Shown in pieces: positions 11,444 through 18,763 of a DNA stretch of 64,000 nt. This DNA comes from Rhodothermus marinus DSM 4252. Lineage in GTDB: Bacteria > Bacteroidota > Rhodothermia > Rhodothermales > Rhodothermaceae. Position 1 is the stretch's first letter. Each line of letters opens with the position of its first letter. Under the pieces are notes generated by a model. The model had not been told where the DNA came from, searched no databases, and saw only the letters and a list, made by a program, of their open reading frames with translations. Both the position numbers and the translations under genes were made by a program. The stretch covers positions 3,142,874-3,206,873 of the forward strand of contig NC_013501.1 in assembly GCF_000024845.1 (NCBI RefSeq). Reading direction: 5' to 3'.

Positions 11444-13576
11444 CTACGCGTTGCCGGCAGTTACGGTTTCGATTCGCGTGCGGAGTGCCACCAGCATTTC
11501 CAGTACCAGAAGGCCCAACGCCAGCCCCAGCAAGACGTTCCAGAGTTCCACGCCGACCTGCGCCTGGCGAAGCGCCGCCGCGACGGCCTGCGGCGAAGCC
11601 TCCGGCACCTCCAGCAGCGTCACCGACAGGCCGGTCTGCTCCTGCAGGCGACGTACGGCCTCTTCGGGCGCTTCCGGCCGCAGATCCGACTCCGCCACCG
11701 CCGGGTTGACCGCCACGCGTCGCACCACCCGGTTGCCTGCTCGAAGCTCATAGATGCCCGGCTGCGCCGGACCCGGCTCGAAACGCGCCCAGCGTGCCCC
11801 GCCCTGTCGTTCCGGCTCGGCCCGATAGACCTGGCCGTCCGGCCCGACCAGCTCTGGGACGGCATCGGTCGGAAACGCCTGCAGCCGAATGCGGGCGGGC
11901 ATGCCGGCCGTCAGCGCGTCCTGCGCTTCTTCTTCGCTCCCCGACAGGTAGAACACCGATCGGTAAAGCAACGGCACGAACAGCCCGCGCAGCGGAAGCT
12001 CGCTCCAGGCCGGATCGGGGGCCGTCGTCCAGAGCAGCACACGCCCTGCGCCATGCCGAACCTCCTGCAGCAGAGGGAGTCCGTTGCTGAGCCGGATCAG
12101 CGTCTGCTCCAGGCCGCTGCCGGGCGCATAGTTCAGCGCGAAGTACACGGCCGGCCGCTCGGTCCGGATCTCACGCTGGCCGGGCAATCGCACGAACAGG
12201 CCCTCGAAGAGCGGATGCGCCAGGTCCATCCGGTCGAACGTCCCGATTGGCGTCGTGCCGTTCCAATTGCCGACCAACCCGCGTACCTGTCCGGCACCCA
12301 GCGCCTCCAGCAGACGCCGGTAGTCTTCCAGTCGCCCGTCGGCACCGGGGAAAAACAGCAGGCCGCCGCCTTCGGCCACGTAACGGGCCAGCGCCGCCAC
12401 CTCGCCGCTCGAAAGGTCGTGCAGGCCGACCAGCCCCACCACATCGTAGCTATCGAGCGCGGTGGCCGGGAGCGCCTCCTCTGCGATCCGGGTGATCTCG
12501 AAGCGCACGCGCTCCTGGCGGATCTCCGGCGAAAGCGCCAGCTCCAGGTAGTCGGTGCGGGCCTGCATGCCGGCCACCAGCAGCACGCGACGCACTTCCG
12601 GCACATGCAGCACCAGATAGCGCGTGTTGTCTTCGAGCAGCGCATCAGGCTGGAGCAGTTCCACCACGCCGGACAGCCAGCCCCGGCGGGCCGGCGTGGT
12701 GGTAAACGTAACCCGGGCGGTGCCGCCGGGCGGGAGATCGACCGAAGCCTGTGCCACCCGCTGCTCTTCCAGCGAAAGCGTCGCCACCACACCCTCGGCG
12801 ACGGCCGTCCCGAAGTTGGCCAGCGTGGCTTCGATCCGCACGGGTTGCCCCTGTTCGATGATGCGGCTGGTGATCCGAACGTCCATAATGGCCAGGTTGG
12901 CGGGCGTCTGGCCACCGACGGGAATCAGCAGCGCGGGCAGCGGCTCCGGGACGGGCTGCGCCAGCGAATCGACCAGCGTCGAAGCCTGCAGGTCGCCGAT
13001 CGCATACAGCACGGCCGGAGCCTGCGCCTGCTGCACGCAGGCGTAGGCCTCGCGCAGTGCAGCCGCAAGCGTCCGGGCACCGTGCCGGATTGTCAGCAGG
13101 CGCAGTTGCTCTTCGGCCACGTCGCGCGGCACCGGCTCCGGCGTCATCGCCGCACCGGCCATCGGCACCAGGCAGACGCGGGCATCGGCGTCGAGCTGCG
13201 CCAGAATCCCCGCAGCGATGGTCCGGGCCTGCGCAAAATAGGCCCCACCGGCATCCCGCACGGCCATCGAGGGCGAATTATCCACGACCAGCCCCACGAC
13301 CGTAGCCGTTCCGCCCCCGGTCCAGGACGCCAGCGGTCCCCGGAGGACCGGCCGGGCGAACGCCAGCACCAGGCACACCAGCGCCAGCGTGCGCAGCAGC
13401 AACAGCAGCCACTGGCGGATGCGCAGCCGCTGCAGGGCCGTCTGCTGCAGTTCCTTCAGAAAGGCCAGCGAACTGAAGGCCACACGCTGCGGCCGCCGAA
13501 AATGAAACAGATGAATCAGAACAGGAATGGCGGCCGCTGCCAGTGCCAGGAGTGCCAGGGGATTCAGAAACGTCAT
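11444..13576 (-). CDS. BatA-like vWA membrane protein
   Basis: A 710-residue inner-membrane protein. The N-terminal double-transmembrane BatA domain is clear (MTFLNPLALLALAAAAIPV, then the typical LIHLFHFRRP and LLLLLRTLALVCLVLAFARP). A vWA domain follows with a MIDAS-type VVDNSPSMAV. Then come a CARDB-like beta domain and a glutamine-amidotransferase-like region (SYDVVGLVGLHDLSSGEV), and a C-terminal transmembrane helix (LLGLALGLLVLEMLVAL). This is the common layout of Bacteroidota BatA-domain proteins. Relatives work beside MoxR ATPases and DUF58 proteins, but neither is present here, so this copy is an orphan. Proposed role: periplasmic stress or chaperone-like function. Confidence 0.85.
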   Translation of the reverse strand: MTFLNPLALLALAAAAIPVLIHLFHFRRPQRVAFSSLAFLKELQQTALQRLRIRQWLLLLLRTLALVCLVLAFARPVLRGPLASWTGGGTATVVGLVVDNSPSMAVRDAGGAYFAQARTIAAGILAQLDADARVCLVPMAGAAMTPEPVPRDVAEEQLRLLTIRHGARTLAAALREAYACVQQAQAPAVLYAIGDLQASTLVDSLAQPVPEPLPALLIPVGGQTPANLAIMDVRITSRIIEQGQPVRIEATLANFGTAVAEGVVATLSLEEQRVAQASVDLPPGGTARVTFTTTPARRGWLSGVVELLQPDALLEDNTRYLVLHVPEVRRVLLVAGMQARTDYLELALSPEIRQERVRFEITRIAEEALPATALDSYDVVGLVGLHDLSSGEVAALARYVAEGGGLLFFPGADGRLEDYRRLLEALGAGQVRGLVGNWNGTTPIGTFDRMDLAHPLFEGLFVRLPGQREIRTERPAVYFALNYAPGSGLEQTLIRLSNGLPLLQEVRHGAGRVLLWTTAPDPAWSELPLRGLFVPLLYRSVFYLSGSEEEAQDALTAGMPARIRLQAFPTDAVPELVGPDGQVYRAEPERQGGARWARFEPGPAQPGIYELRAGNRVVRRVAVNPAVAESDLRPEAPEEAVRRLQEQTGLSVTLLEVPEASPQAVAAALRQAQVGVELWNVLLGLALGLLVLEMLVALRTRIETVTAGNA

Positions 13577-13639: not shown

Positions 13640-14443
13640 CTACAGCCAGGCAAAATGCACCTCGGCGCCGCGTTCGGCGGGCGCGAAGCGCAGCCGGAAG
13701 CGATCGCCCATGCGCGGCGTCCATACGTAGGGCCAGTTCGGGCAGCGTCCGGCCTGGCAGATCAGCCGATCCCCGTGGTAGATCTGAAGCCCCAGGTACA
13801 GCAGGTCACCCTCCCGTCCGCTCAGGTCGCACACGACCTCACGCTCGGCCTGTCCGAACGCCCATCGGACCACCGGAAATTGCAGCGGCAGGTCGCCTTC
13901 GTCGAACAGCCCGGACACCAGCGCCCCTTCGAGCCGGCGTACGACGGCCGGCGTGACGGTTTCGTCGGCTACCTGCTCGGTCCAGGCCAACCCGCCCATC
14001 AGCACGGCCCGATCCGGCAACACAAGCCGGGGACGAAAACGGAGCGCTTCGAGCACATGCAGGTCTTCGTCATAGAGCAGCGGTCCGAAGAATTCGTGGA
14101 CGAGCACATCGACCGGTTCTTCCGGCTCGAACTGCTGGATTTCCTGATGAACGCAGACCACCTCCGGGTAGGCGGCCAGTCGTTCCGAAGCCAGCGCGTA
14201 CAGGTGGGGGTTGGCCTCGACCGCATAGACACGTCGGGCACCCAGACGCACCAGCTCCTCGCTGAAGTAGCCCATCCCGCACCCGGCATCCACGCACACG
14301 GCCCCGGCGATGGTGCGGCGATGCGCCCGCAGCAGCCGCAGGTAGGCGCGCGTGCGCGCCCGATCGTCGTAGATGCTGATGAACGTCAGCAGATCGTCCA
14401 ACGCGGCGAACGTCGCTTCGGGCAGGACGTTGAGAATGTCCAT
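13640..14443 (-). CDS. Protein arginine methyltransferase-like enzyme
   Basis: A 267-residue class I methyltransferase with several PRMT hallmarks. An N-terminal YDDRARTRAYLRLL resembles the PRMT substrate-gating helix. Motif I is VDAGCGMGYFS and post-I is VYAVEANP. VHEFFGPLLYDED matches the PRMT double-E loop, with glutamates at about 117 and 126, the same spacing of nine as eukaryotic PRMTs. A C-terminal NWPYVWTP may stand for the THW loop, and the remaining beta-barrel is short. Known bacterial PRMT-like proteins are few and mostly uncharacterised. Substrate unknown. It lies between the HDOD and BatA-like genes. Confidence 0.75.
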   Translation of the reverse strand: MDILNVLPEATFAALDDLLTFISIYDDRARTRAYLRLLRAHRRTIAGAVCVDAGCGMGYFSEELVRLGARRVYAVEANPHLYALASERLAAYPEVVCVHQEIQQFEPEEPVDVLVHEFFGPLLYDEDLHVLEALRFRPRLVLPDRAVLMGGLAWTEQVADETVTPAVVRRLEGALVSGLFDEGDLPLQFPVVRWAFGQAEREVVCDLSGREGDLLYLGLQIYHGDRLICQAGRCPNWPYVWTPRMGDRFRLRFAPAERGAEVHFAWL

Positions 14444-14501: not shown

Positions 14502-15395
14502 TCAGAAGTGCGCGTCGACGTAGTTCTGCAGGATTTCGCGAGCCGCTTCCACGGTCTGCCAGACGGCCTCGGCATCCGGATAGCCGAAGAGCTGGGCGGT
14601 CAGCTCCCAATCGGCGTCCAGCGGTTCTTCTTCCCTGCGCATCGGCTCGTCGAAGCCGTAGTCCAGCCAGGTAGCGCCCAGGCTCGCCACCCGCAGCAGG
14701 GCACCCGGCGTGGCGGCCACGCCGTCGCCGCGTCCTTCGCCGTACAGGTCCATCAGCGCCCGGAAGAGCGGCTCGGGTAGCTTCATGTGCAGTGCCAGCG
14801 CCTGGGTGATCACCTCCAGGCTGTAGCCAAAGACGGCCTCCTGTTCTTCGGGCGTATGCGGACCGGCACCCGGCTGGAAGGCGGCCAGTGCCGCGTCGGG
14901 CTTGTTGTAAAGCAGCAGAAGTTTGGCAAAGTCGTGCAGCAGTCCGGCCGTGTAGGCCGACTCCGGCCGCCAGTCGCCCGGCCGGGGTGCGCGCTGAATG
15001 AGCAAACGGGCCAGGTAGGCGGTGGCCGCGCAATGGCGCACCAGATTCAGAAATGGCGCGGCCGTCCGGGCATCGAAGGCGCTCTTCATCGAGAGCATCC
15101 CCATGCTCATGACCATCCCGACCACGGCGGGCGGCCCCAGTACGACAATGGCATGGTGCACCTCGCCGATGCGTCCCCGGAGTCCGTAATAGGCCGAGTT
15201 GGCCACGCGCAACAGGCGGGCTACCGCTGCCGGATCATGCTGCAGCAGGGCCTCCACTTCCTCAGGCTCGGGCGGCTCTGGTCGTTCCATAAGCTGAATG
15301 GCCTCCAGCAGCGTCTGCGGAAGCGGCGGGCACTCCAGCTCCAGGTCGGTCAGCGTCGGGATATGCTCTGAAGGAGTGAGTGCGGTCGGGGTCAT
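14502..15395 (-). CDS. HDOD-domain signalling protein
   Basis: A 297-residue protein dominated by an HDOD (metal-independent HD-related output) domain: CPPLPQTLLEAIQLM, HDPAAVARLLRVANSAYYGL and IVVLGPPAVVGMV are typical, and LLHDFAKLLLLYN preserves an HD-like pair. HDOD proteins link two-component or c-di-GMP signals to outputs such as motility or competence; no receiver or GGDEF domain is fused here. The ATG at 15395 was chosen because upstream in-frame sequence is intergenic in character. Divergent from the T9SS cargo gene, with about 290 bp between them. Confidence 0.84.
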   Translation of the reverse strand: MTPTALTPSEHIPTLTDLELECPPLPQTLLEAIQLMERPEPPEPEEVEALLQHDPAAVARLLRVANSAYYGLRGRIGEVHHAIVVLGPPAVVGMVMSMGMLSMKSAFDARTAAPFLNLVRHCAATAYLARLLIQRAPRPGDWRPESAYTAGLLHDFAKLLLLYNKPDAALAAFQPGAGPHTPEEQEAVFGYSLEVITQALALHMKLPEPLFRALMDLYGEGRGDGVAATPGALLRVASLGATWLDYGFDEPMRREEEPLDADWELTAQLFGYPDAEAVWQTVEAAREILQNYVDAHF

Positions 15396-15684: not shown

Positions 15685-17112
15685 ATGAACATGCACAGCC
15701 GCTCCGCTTTCTGGTCTATCCTGCTGAGCCTCCTGCTGATCAGTGGCATGCCCGATGCACGGGCACAGATCGGCACGCCCGGTCCGCGCCTGACCTGGCT
15801 CGGCACGGCCGACGGCAACTGGAGCATTGCCTACGACGTCTCGGCCTTCGGCCACATCGTGGTCGGCTACTATCAGCAGGTCGAAGGGCTCTCGGTGCAA
15901 AACATACGGCTGTTCCGGTGGACGAAAAGCGACGGCATGGAGACCGCCATCCTGCCCGATCGCACCGGTCGTGCCCGGGGGCTCTCGCACGACGGAACCA
16001 CGTTCGTGGGATCTGCCCTCCTGACGCTCACCCAGGCGTTCCGGTGGCACCCGGACAATCCGGATCAGGACCAGAACGGCCAGCCGGACGTGCTTCCGCT
16101 GGAAACGCCCGGCTACAATTCCGGCGAGGCCCGGGCCGTCTCGTCCGACGGCGGCGTCATCGTGGGCGCCGTTTACAACTGGTCGCTCCTGGGAGGCGCT
16201 TCTCCCCGCGAAGCCTTTCGCTGGACGGAAACCGACGGACTGCAGCTGCTCGGCACGCTGGGCGGCGAGGCAAGTCTGGCCGAAAACGTGTCGGCCGACG
16301 GAGCGATCGTCGTGGGCAGCGCGCAGAACCAGTTCGGAAAATACCATGCGTTTCGCTGGACGGCGGCCGATGGCATGCAGCCGCTCGGAACGCTGATGTA
16401 CGTGCTCTACGACTCCAGCACCGCCACGGCCGTCTCGGACGATGGTAGCGTGGTCGTTGGCTGGGCCCACGTGCCCGGCAACGACGTGCTGGTTGCCTTT
16501 CGCGTGGACAACGGGGTGCTCAGCGAGCTGGCCGGGCCGACCGCATACCCGCAGACGCAGGCCTACGACGTGACGGCCGACGGCTCGATGGTGGTCGGCG
16601 TGATGTTCAACGAAAACGGTGAGCGTCGGGCTTTTCGCTGGACCGACGGGGTCGGCCTGGAAGATCTGAGCGCGGTCTATGCCGATCTGCTCACGCCGGT
16701 CGGATCTTACCTGCGCACGGCGCAGGCGATCTCCCCGAACGGACGCTACATCGTGGGCCAGGGCTTCAACGCGGCGACCGGCCGTTTCGAGGCGTTTCTG
16801 CTCGACACCTGGCAGACGACGGCGGCCGACGCGACCCCAATGCTGCCGACCGCGGCCGAACTGCTACCGCCGGCGCCCAATCCGTTCACCCGCGCCACGA
16901 CCATTACGCTGCGACTACCGGTCGCGCAGCCGGTGCGTCTGGAAGTGATCGATCTGCAGGGGCGCAGCGTGCGCACCCTGATAGATGGCTGGCTTCCCGA
17001 GGGCACGCATCGCGTCCGTTTCGAATCCAGGAGCCTGGCCCCCGGACTTTACCTCTGTCGGCTGCAGGCTACCTCCGGCCCTACCTACCGCACGCTTCTC
17101 CTGCTGCGTTAA
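15685..17112 (+). CDS. Secreted HAF-repeat protein with T9SS type A sorting domain
   Basis: A 475-residue exported protein. It has a signal peptide (LLSLLLISGMPDARA, cleaved before Q), then about six HAF repeats (pattern: LGTLGG, A-x-VS-x-DG-x-VVVG, FRWT) from residue 35 to 350, for example AENVSADGAIVVGSAQN. The last 80 residues form a type IX secretion C-terminal domain (PPAPNPFTRATTITLRL, then LEVIDLQGRSVRTL and LAPGLYLCRL). It is likely moved through the T9SS to the surface. It is convergent with a paralogue whose stop codon overlaps its own. Function of HAF repeats unknown; beta-propeller-like folding is plausible. Confidence 0.86.
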   Translation: MNMHSRSAFWSILLSLLLISGMPDARAQIGTPGPRLTWLGTADGNWSIAYDVSAFGHIVVGYYQQVEGLSVQNIRLFRWTKSDGMETAILPDRTGRARGLSHDGTTFVGSALLTLTQAFRWHPDNPDQDQNGQPDVLPLETPGYNSGEARAVSSDGGVIVGAVYNWSLLGGASPREAFRWTETDGLQLLGTLGGEASLAENVSADGAIVVGSAQNQFGKYHAFRWTAADGMQPLGTLMYVLYDSSTATAVSDDGSVVVGWAHVPGNDVLVAFRVDNGVLSELAGPTAYPQTQAYDVTADGSMVVGVMFNENGERRAFRWTDGVGLEDLSAVYADLLTPVGSYLRTAQAISPNGRYIVGQGFNAATGRFEAFLLDTWQTTAADATPMLPTAAELLPPAPNPFTRATTITLRLPVAQPVRLEVIDLQGRSVRTLIDGWLPEGTHRVRFESRSLAPGLYLCRLQATSGPTYRTLLLLR

Positions 17113-18515
17113 CGCACCAGCAGCAGGCGACGCGTCAGTACGACTCGGGCCGTCTCCAGTCGATACAGGTAGAGGCCGCCTGCCACCGGGTGCCCGGCCT
17201 CGTCGCGTCCGTCCCACTGCACTGTGTGTAATCCGGCGGCCAGCCTTGCATGCACCAGCGTCCGAACTTCTCGTCCCAGCAGATCCAGCACTTTCAGTGT
17301 TACCCACCCTGGATCTGCCGTTTCGAAGGACACCTGAGTCGTCGAGCGGAAAGGATTGGGATAGTTCTGTATCAGTACAGTTTTCTGACGCAATGGCCGC
17401 TGATCGTCGACCGCCGTAACGCCCTGCGTGTCAAGCAGAAAGCCTTCGGTGCGTCCGGTCTCCGCATTGAAGCCATGCCCGACAATATATCGACCGTCCG
17501 GGGATATGGCGGTAGCACGCTCCAGATACGAACCGGGTGTCAGCAAACTGGCGTAGTGGCTGGTCAGATTCCGCATGGTGGGCGGCACAGTAAAGGCATC
17601 CCAGAGCAGCGCGCGTTCCTCCGTGGTATTGTTAATCACATAGTAACCAACCACATAGCGTCCATTTGCGGAAACGTCAAGCGCGGCACTATTGACCCCG
17701 AGGCTGGGCAATTCGACCATACCGCTTGCGGCTCGCCAACGAAAAGGCCGCAGGTCGCCATTGTTGTTTGAAGAAAAGCCTACAATGACCGTCCCGTCTG
17801 CCGAAACGGCACGGGCCTCGCTCCAGCTTCCTCCCAGCGTGCCCAGGTCCTGCATGACCCAGTTTTCCCAGCGAAATGCCCGCATCGTCATATCTGAATT
17901 CATTGCCTGACCTACAACGACAGCCCCATCGGCGGAAGCATCGTAGGCATATGCCTGGAAACCACCCAGCGTGCCCAGATCCTCCATCTGAGTGGTCCAA
18001 CGATAAGCCCGCGGATCACCGGGATCCCAGTACTCTCCTACGATGACCAGACCATCGTCTGAAATGCCGTGTGCTCTATTTTCCCGGTCAGCCACCAGAC
18101 TCTGTATTTCTTGCATTCCTGTGGTAGCCGTCCATCGAAATGAGCGAGGGGAGGCATCTCCGGGCTTATAGGCCCAGCCAACGATCACGTTGCCGTCACT
18201 GGAAACTGCCCGGGCACTACTTTGACTTCCTCCCAGAGTCCCCAGGTCCTGCAAGCCCGTCCCCGGCGTCCAGAAAAAGGCACGGATCTGCTGGCTGGCG
18301 TTTGCGGAAGTGCCCACCACCACCGGTCCTTCATTGGACACATCATAGGCCCGGCTGCTATTCCCACCCAGCGTGCCCAGCCAGGTGAGCGTCTGTGCCT
18401 GCGTGCTCAGAGACACCAGCATGCCTGAAAGCAGCAATCCTGTAAGACTGATCCGAACCGCCGCCGAAGCGACGGGAAGGGCTGGCAGCAGCAGTCGAGC
18501 CATGCGTCGTTTCAT
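17109..18515 (-). CDS. Secreted HAF-repeat protein with T9SS type A sorting domain (paralogue)
   Basis: A 468-residue paralogue of the facing gene. A twin-arginine-free signal peptide (LTGLLLSGMLVSLSTQAQ) is followed by about seven cleaner HAF repeats, such as LGTLGGSQSSARAVSSDGN and DLGTLGGSWSEARAVSADGT. The C-terminal sorting domain has QNYPNPFRSTTQVSFET, LKVLDLLGREVRTLV and GGLYLYRLET. The ATG at 18515 fits the signal peptide; an upstream in-frame codon at 18557 would add an unlikely leader. Its base composition is a little more AT-rich than its neighbour, hinting at separate histories. Surface or secreted role inferred. Confidence 0.86.
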   Translation of the reverse strand: MKRRMARLLLPALPVASAAVRISLTGLLLSGMLVSLSTQAQTLTWLGTLGGNSSRAYDVSNEGPVVVGTSANASQQIRAFFWTPGTGLQDLGTLGGSQSSARAVSSDGNVIVGWAYKPGDASPRSFRWTATTGMQEIQSLVADRENRAHGISDDGLVIVGEYWDPGDPRAYRWTTQMEDLGTLGGFQAYAYDASADGAVVVGQAMNSDMTMRAFRWENWVMQDLGTLGGSWSEARAVSADGTVIVGFSSNNNGDLRPFRWRAASGMVELPSLGVNSAALDVSANGRYVVGYYVINNTTEERALLWDAFTVPPTMRNLTSHYASLLTPGSYLERATAISPDGRYIVGHGFNAETGRTEGFLLDTQGVTAVDDQRPLRQKTVLIQNYPNPFRSTTQVSFETADPGWVTLKVLDLLGREVRTLVHARLAAGLHTVQWDGRDEAGHPVAGGLYLYRLETARVVLTRRLLLVR

Positions 18516-18763
18516 GAGTGCGCTCCAGTTGGTTGAGACTGTTCCGAAAACAAGCACGCAGTTTTCTCAAGGTCAACCGGGTGCGCCGCAGCAACTACTT
18601 TCTGCAACGTGCAGACTCAACCCTCAAGCATGGCTCTCCGGCGCCCGAACCTCCTGTGTAAGCTGCGCGCGAGCGAAAACAGAGCTTTTGAAGCACCATA
18701 CTTGCCCCGAGCGACCCGCCAGTAGGCGTTTTGGCGCGGGTCGGGGGACAACTCTGGCGCATT

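Follow-up and report, generated by a model that had tools for sequence, protein, structure and literature searches.

A compact PRMT-fold protein of Rhodothermus marinus as a candidate bacterial protein-arginine methyltransferase

The gene, its neighbours and its distribution

The window analyzed here, the whole stretch of 64,000 nucleotides from Rhodothermus marinus, belongs to a genome of 3,386,737 bases in two contigs. A gene for a PRMT-like methyltransferase of 267 amino acids is located on the minus strand of the window (13640..14443, ATG start, stop included). At the N-terminus of 19 relatives, M1, I3 and N5 were invariant, and D2 was found in at least 90%. Since the N-terminus is conserved in the relatives, the ATG start of this ORF is supported. 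The gene is apparently present in a single copy; the sole other match in the genome was a 30% local match (7e-4). A 94% identical copy was found in a Rhodothermus MAG (L010). The gene is under purifying selection and strongly conserved in Rhodothermus, with dN/dS values of 0.041-0.075 in 17 of the 21 pairs formed by seven sequences; the synonymous sites of the other four pairs were saturated and gave no value.

An HDOD-domain protein (14502..15395, minus strand; PF08668, 1.4e-31) is encoded upstream of the PRMT-like gene, and a BatA/vWA membrane protein (11444..13576, minus strand; BatA 2.7e-22, VWA_2 9.2e-7) is encoded downstream. The order on one strand in Rhodothermus is HDOD, the PRMT-like gene, BatA/vWA, a membrane-type protein of 189 residues and HflX, and some 60 bases separate the PRMT-like gene from either neighbour. 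It is plausible that the row from HDOD to HflX forms an operon. The genes for HDOD, BatA, the 189-residue protein, HflX and a CBS protein were linked in two of 16 loci, both of them from Rhodothermus, and HDOD, BatA, HflX and CBS were absent beside the gene in all 14 loci from other organisms. The HDOD and vWA/BatA neighbours pointed out in the original prediction are thus present on the same strand, but of 32 loci, just the two from Rhodothermus have them linked to the gene. Since the linkage is confined to this genus, the neighbours do not indicate the function or the substrate. Neither a universal neighbour nor a recurring biosynthetic partner was found among the 32 loci. One neighbour cluster (15 loci) was set aside, as it was joined partly through shared secretion-tail domains.

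Several other genes were seen near the PRMT-like gene. A secreted-type homologue with an RPYEPV-like start, as read from the sequence, is encoded immediately after the gene, in the same orientation, in seven of the 32 loci (L020, L022, L025, L079, L080, L081 and L082). These loci apparently represent one or two subclades, and several of them had scores for tails of the type IX sorting or FlgD-like kind. In the window itself, two convergent genes beside the HDOD gene (15685-17112 and 17109-18557) encode related secreted-type repeat proteins whose tails read as type IX-like. In bacterium KatS3mg041, a gene of the deoxyhypusine synthase family (L019, 7505-8638; PF01916, 4.9e-102) is located near the PRMT-like gene.

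The distribution of the gene is patchy and concentrated in one KSB1-like phylum. Genome contigs were scanned with two peptide patterns that require near-exact peptides, so that distant forms could escape; the 82 pattern matches were reduced to 16 loci from Rhodothermus, Bacteroidetes, Saprospiraceae, Calditrichota, KSB1, Ignavibacteriae and an unclassified bacterium. Within the order of R. marinus, the family profile matched eight of 114 genomes; seven of these are Rhodothermus, and the eighth (G326) has a different PRMT-like protein. The profile also matched four of 40 genomes in the phylum of L012 and 24 of 82 in the phylum of L020, where 21 matches were full length and three were weak and partial. 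A search with the single protein gave matches in eight of 296 genomes of the R. marinus phylum; a further search for relatives mostly returned genes of these same genomes and is not independent. Searches of phages, plasmids and viral contigs returned no relatives, and a mobile origin is therefore unsupported. In the phylogenetic tree, which was rooted at the midpoint, three outgroup rows formed very long branches, and the origin of the family was not inferred from it.

Relationship to the PRMT superfamily

Pfam and NCBIfam gave only generic class I SAM matches for the 267-residue protein (Methyltransf_25, 3.4e-7; FtsJ, 4.8e-7), and the Erm and BchM models scored far under their cut-offs. The original prediction had staked the assignment on the absence of a better-matching methyltransferase family, and no such family appeared among the generic SAM-domain matches of Pfam. 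A match to Mad2 from PADLOC (residues 31-115, 1e-13) covers the SAM half of a model of 492 residues and was read as a generic SAM-domain likeness.

In a phmmer search against all PDB chains, CARM1, PRMT7, PRMT3 and PRMT6 ranked highest (CARM1, 8.5e-8). In the alignment to CARM1, the two glutamates of its double-E loop stand opposite E117 and E126, and its D, R, T and Y residues stand opposite D27, R30, T31 and Y34. A profile built from the 19 relatives matched PRMT3 in the PDB at 1.3e-14 over residues 26-150, and 58 of 60 among the matches listed are PRMTs by name. In a profile-profile comparison, the N-terminal half matched three other bacterial PRMT-like sequences with an E-value of 4.2e-20, with both glutamates aligned.

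Two AlphaFold models were calculated, one from an alignment of eight rows (pLDDT 84) and one from an alignment of 19 rows (pLDDT 90, pTM 0.86). Foldseek searches with both models gave PRMTs for 50 of 50 among the matches listed, and the best of these for the model with pLDDT 90 was T. brucei PRMT7 (4m38/4m36/5eku, 3.7e-15). With VIA-align, all 50 entries among the matches listed had Z scores of 20.4-21.4, with ranges reaching residue 267. The alignment of the model to PRMTs covered 255 of 267 residues (Z 21, model 5-267) with the barrel included; PRMT6 was superposed over 248 residues at 2.9 Å (model range 10-267), and PRMT3 over 238 residues at 2.6 Å. The expectation that the best fold match would be a PRMT with its barrel was thus borne out on the predicted models. 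The fold match is strong, but it is not an independent proof because AlphaFold was trained on PRMT structures. In the model, helices 9-26 and 28-40 lie in the N-terminal region of the D..RT..Y pattern. A check for the dimerization arm showed that the strands 145-153 and 189-195 are separated by some 35 residues, which include two short helices.

The C-terminal half (residues 140-267; 13643..14026, minus strand) is a PRMT-like beta-barrel in the predicted fold, and its sequence has drifted beyond detection. This half had no sequence match among PDB chains at E-values up to 10, and its comparison with bacterial PRMT-like sequences by hhalign reached a probability of 0.2 at best. The Pfam model PRMT_C (PF22528) was not scored for the protein at E-values up to 10 and had no match in its own genome, while it does score other bacterial PRMT-like proteins. 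Taken together, sequence and model place the protein in the PRMT superfamily, and we consider it highly probable that it is a PRMT-fold methyltransferase.

Active-site residues and the Asn-Trp loop

Conservation was analyzed in 26 sequences, namely the 19 relatives and seven from further loci; L063 was omitted because it has the same genome place as L025. The residues S23, I24, Y25, D27, R30, G54, G56, E76, G120, L123, D125 and E126 are found in all 26 sequences, as are C229, A231, C234, N236, W237, W241 and T242 in the C-terminal half. Position 117 is Glu in 22 of the 26 and Asp in the other four.

The motifs read in the original prediction were found in the protein. Motif I, which is predicted to bind SAM, is CVDAGCGMG at residues 50-58 (14270..14296, minus strand). 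The helix described as D-RART-AY is D26-D27-R28-A29-R30-T31-R32-A33-Y34, in which the codons of D27-R28-A29-R30 occupy 14354..14365 (minus strand), and it aligns to the D..RT..Y of CARM1. In PRMTs this helix contacts SAM and caps the pocket. E76, the acidic residue after motif I (VYAVE; 14216..14218, minus strand), is expected to contact SAM. A study of PRMT1 gives the post-motif I counterpart as VIGIE and the further motifs as SEWMGYCLFYESM and YTHWK (PMC8619983).

The two glutamates nine residues apart, E117 and E126, are carried by VHEFFGPLLYDED, and the double-E loop, E117-FFGPLLYD-E126, occupies 14066..14095 on the minus strand. The sequence alignment of the loop to PRMT loops places both glutamates at the PRMT guanidinium site. 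The loop had been described as intact, which is true of the 267-residue protein but not of the whole family, with its four Asp-bearing members.

The segment C229-QAGR-C234-P-N236-W237 (C-x4-C-x-N-W; 13733..13759, minus strand) is a signature of the family, with both cysteines, N236 and W237 invariant. N236-W237 is probably the counterpart of the THW loop. This proposal follows from the strand order of the model and from GDRF after it, which matches the GD after THW. The correspondence of GDRF to GD was given by hhalign at a probability of 0.2, which is very weak and makes the THW register an inference, and MAFFT of the C-terminal half with other bacterial PRMT-like proteins sets NW against a different strand. 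It was also observed that the C-x4-C pair precedes NW in 26 of 26 sequences and is not seen in the PRMT-like proteins L028 and L061.

The invariant I24 probably occupies the F71/M48 site, F71 being the residue of T. brucei PRMT7. T. brucei PRMT7 belongs to type III; its double-E loop has E172 and E181, and the guanidino group is contacted by Gln329, which lies in the THW loop. Its E181D variant yields ADMA, E181D/Q329A yields SDMA, and F71I allows dimethylation (PMC8226133). The likeness to type I/II PRMTs claimed in the original prediction held for the double-E spacing, but the His-Trp of THW is apparently replaced by the invariant Asn-Trp, which is nearer to T. brucei PRMT7. As to mono- versus dimethylation, Asn236 would resemble the type III Gln329, and I24 would sit at the F71 site, where F71I permits dimethylation. 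Given an Asn in the Gln/His position and an Ile in the F71/M48 position, the product may be mono- or dimethylated. As a natural variant, the altered THW loop could help in probing the rules of mono- and dimethylation.

Proposed reaction, alternative readings and comparison with known systems

On the basis of the motifs and the model, the following reaction may be proposed. Motif I and E76 of the Rossmann half would hold SAM, as alignment and fold both show, and the N-terminal helix with D27 and R30 would, by alignment, close over it. E117 and E126, which are placed by alignment, would clamp the guanidinium between the Rossmann domain and the barrel. The amide of Asn236 may touch the guanidinium in the manner of the Gln of T. 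brucei PRMT7. The methyl group would then be moved to the omega-nitrogen of arginine, the likeliest target being a single bacterial protein or a small number of them.

The substrate is probably a guanidine. The double-E loop alone is no proof of an arginine substrate, since NRPS PRMT-like domains share the spacing. We favour an arginine-guanidino methyltransferase for which a protein is a more likely target than free arginine, and we put the probability that the protein is a compact, single-core bacterial PRMT member acting as a protein-arginine methyltransferase at roughly 0.55. A protein substrate is weakly favoured over a natural-product substrate because there is no conserved biosynthetic neighbourhood in the 32 loci. 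A search of the genome for the RRM protein family gave no match (the control was positive in two of 14 genomes). The RGGxRGG DNA pattern with one mismatch gave 160/187 against 179/177 for the reversed control and was not above it. Inspection of 20 RGGxRGG loci on the forward strand (10 exact and 10 with one mismatch) gave no convincing glycine-arginine-rich protein. This RGG/GAR search is a weak negative, since inspection covered forward-strand matches and the reverse-strand ones entered the counts only.

There are other possible interpretations of these results. As with SznE/StzE, which act in streptozotocin biosynthesis, the guanidino group that is methylated may be that of a small molecule such as free arginine or agmatine. 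SznE, a known bacterial arginine-guanidino methyltransferase, makes N-omega-methyl-L-arginine (PMC11705231), and a 31% identical relative is located in the saskemycin cluster (PMC12637814). The small barrel of the family and the lack of an evident protein substrate would agree with this reading, but no biosynthetic partner recurs in the 32 loci, and the long-term conservation amid varied, unrelated neighbours fits a stand-alone enzyme. We regard a small guanidine as a rather unlikely substrate. Another reading is that a PRMT-fold methyltransferase has shifted to a hydroxyl, an amine or another nucleophile, as presumed for NRPS domains. In work on lyngbyapeptin synthesis, the LynB3 domains are presumed to be Tyr O-methyltransferases because they resemble arginine methyltransferases (PMC10127204). 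The family profile picks up giant ORFs of the NRPS type (L038 and L039); L038, to which the LynB3 domains are similar, keeps the double-E spacing, and the barrel and THW loop are strongly altered in the 267-residue family. The guanidinium site is nevertheless kept, with E126, R30 and D27 invariant and E117 nearly so, and two carboxylates are not obviously needed by an O-methyltransferase; such a shift is unlikely.

Two further readings are very improbable. An ordinary class I methyltransferase, acting on rRNA, a ribosomal protein or another substrate, could carry a double-E by chance, and the generic Pfam/NCBIfam matches would permit this; the matches in the PDB, however, are to PRMTs both by sequence and by fold, the latter over both halves, and the double-E is conserved. 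The replacement of E117 by Asp in four of 26 sequences and the altered THW loop might instead indicate a partner with little or no catalytic activity, comparable to the PRMT1 prozyme of trypanosomes (named TbPRMT3 in the review). Against this reading stand the invariant SAM motifs, E126, D27 and R30, and no active paralogue was found in the genome, where the one other match is the 30% local match.

As a more specific and tentative form of the protein-arginine methyltransferase reading, it is possible, if somewhat doubtful, that the family represents a separate lineage of true protein arginine methyltransferases in FCB-type bacteria, with a rebuilt barrel, the Asn-Trp and C-x4-C loop and a specific conserved protein target. 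Activity might then be gated by the redox state of the invariant cysteine pair. Protein arginine methylation has been studied almost wholly in eukaryotes. Methylated arginine is reported in a few bacterial proteins (PMC8466066). In a literature search that covered subscription journals thinly, no protein-acting bacterial PRMT enzyme was named among the papers listed, the family was not described and no paper on a Rhodothermus arginine methyltransferase was found; bacterial PRMTs were mentioned as a group in a plant study and in a paper that cites methylarginine proteomics of bacteria. With a small and strongly conserved enzyme of the PRMT type in a thermophile, bacterial arginine methylation would become directly testable.

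The family can be compared with several known systems. The bacterial PRMT-like proteins L028 (320 residues) and L061 (348 residues) are homologous to it in the N-terminal half, with both glutamates aligned. Unlike the 267-residue family, however, L028 and the genome of L061 (G273) keep a barrel that is recognized by PRMT_C, and in the alignment their THW loop reads SW or HW instead of the proposed NW. The match of the L028 gene (913-1875, minus strand) to PRMT6 extends across both halves (1.8e-32); the L061 gene (1078-2124, minus strand) has an intact THW and, from the reading of ORFs, adjoins formyltransferase-like and acyltransferase-like genes. The PRMT-like domains embedded in NRPSs have in common with the family the PRMT-like SAM half and the double-E spacing, but they reside in megasynthases and presumably catalyze O-methylation. 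The giant ORFs L038 (G380:C47) and L039 (G382:C49), which gave scores with the family profile, have about 4,360 residues and come from Calditrichota-like genomes. In L038, an NRPS, the PRMT-like domain is set in an adenylation domain, with the glutamates nine apart and a PRMT6 match of 7.7e-19. SznE/StzE, likened here by description, is also bacterial and methylates the guanidine of arginine, namely free arginine in a biosynthetic cluster.

Among eukaryotic enzymes, the type I PRMTs (PRMT6, PRMT1, PRMT3 and CARM1) match the predicted fold over the whole length and have motif I, post-I and the double-E in common with the bacterial protein, whereas the latter apparently has Asn for the His of THW and has a shorter barrel. 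Type I PRMTs have N-terminal tyrosines in helix X, which are not seen in the bacterial protein. T. brucei PRMT7 resembles the bacterial protein in having two glutamates nine apart, and its amide in the THW loop, Gln329, would correspond to Asn236. The identity is about 16%, the PRMT7 chain has 334 residues against 267, and the barrel is unalignable by sequence; on the bacterial side, the loop region carries in addition two invariant cysteines.
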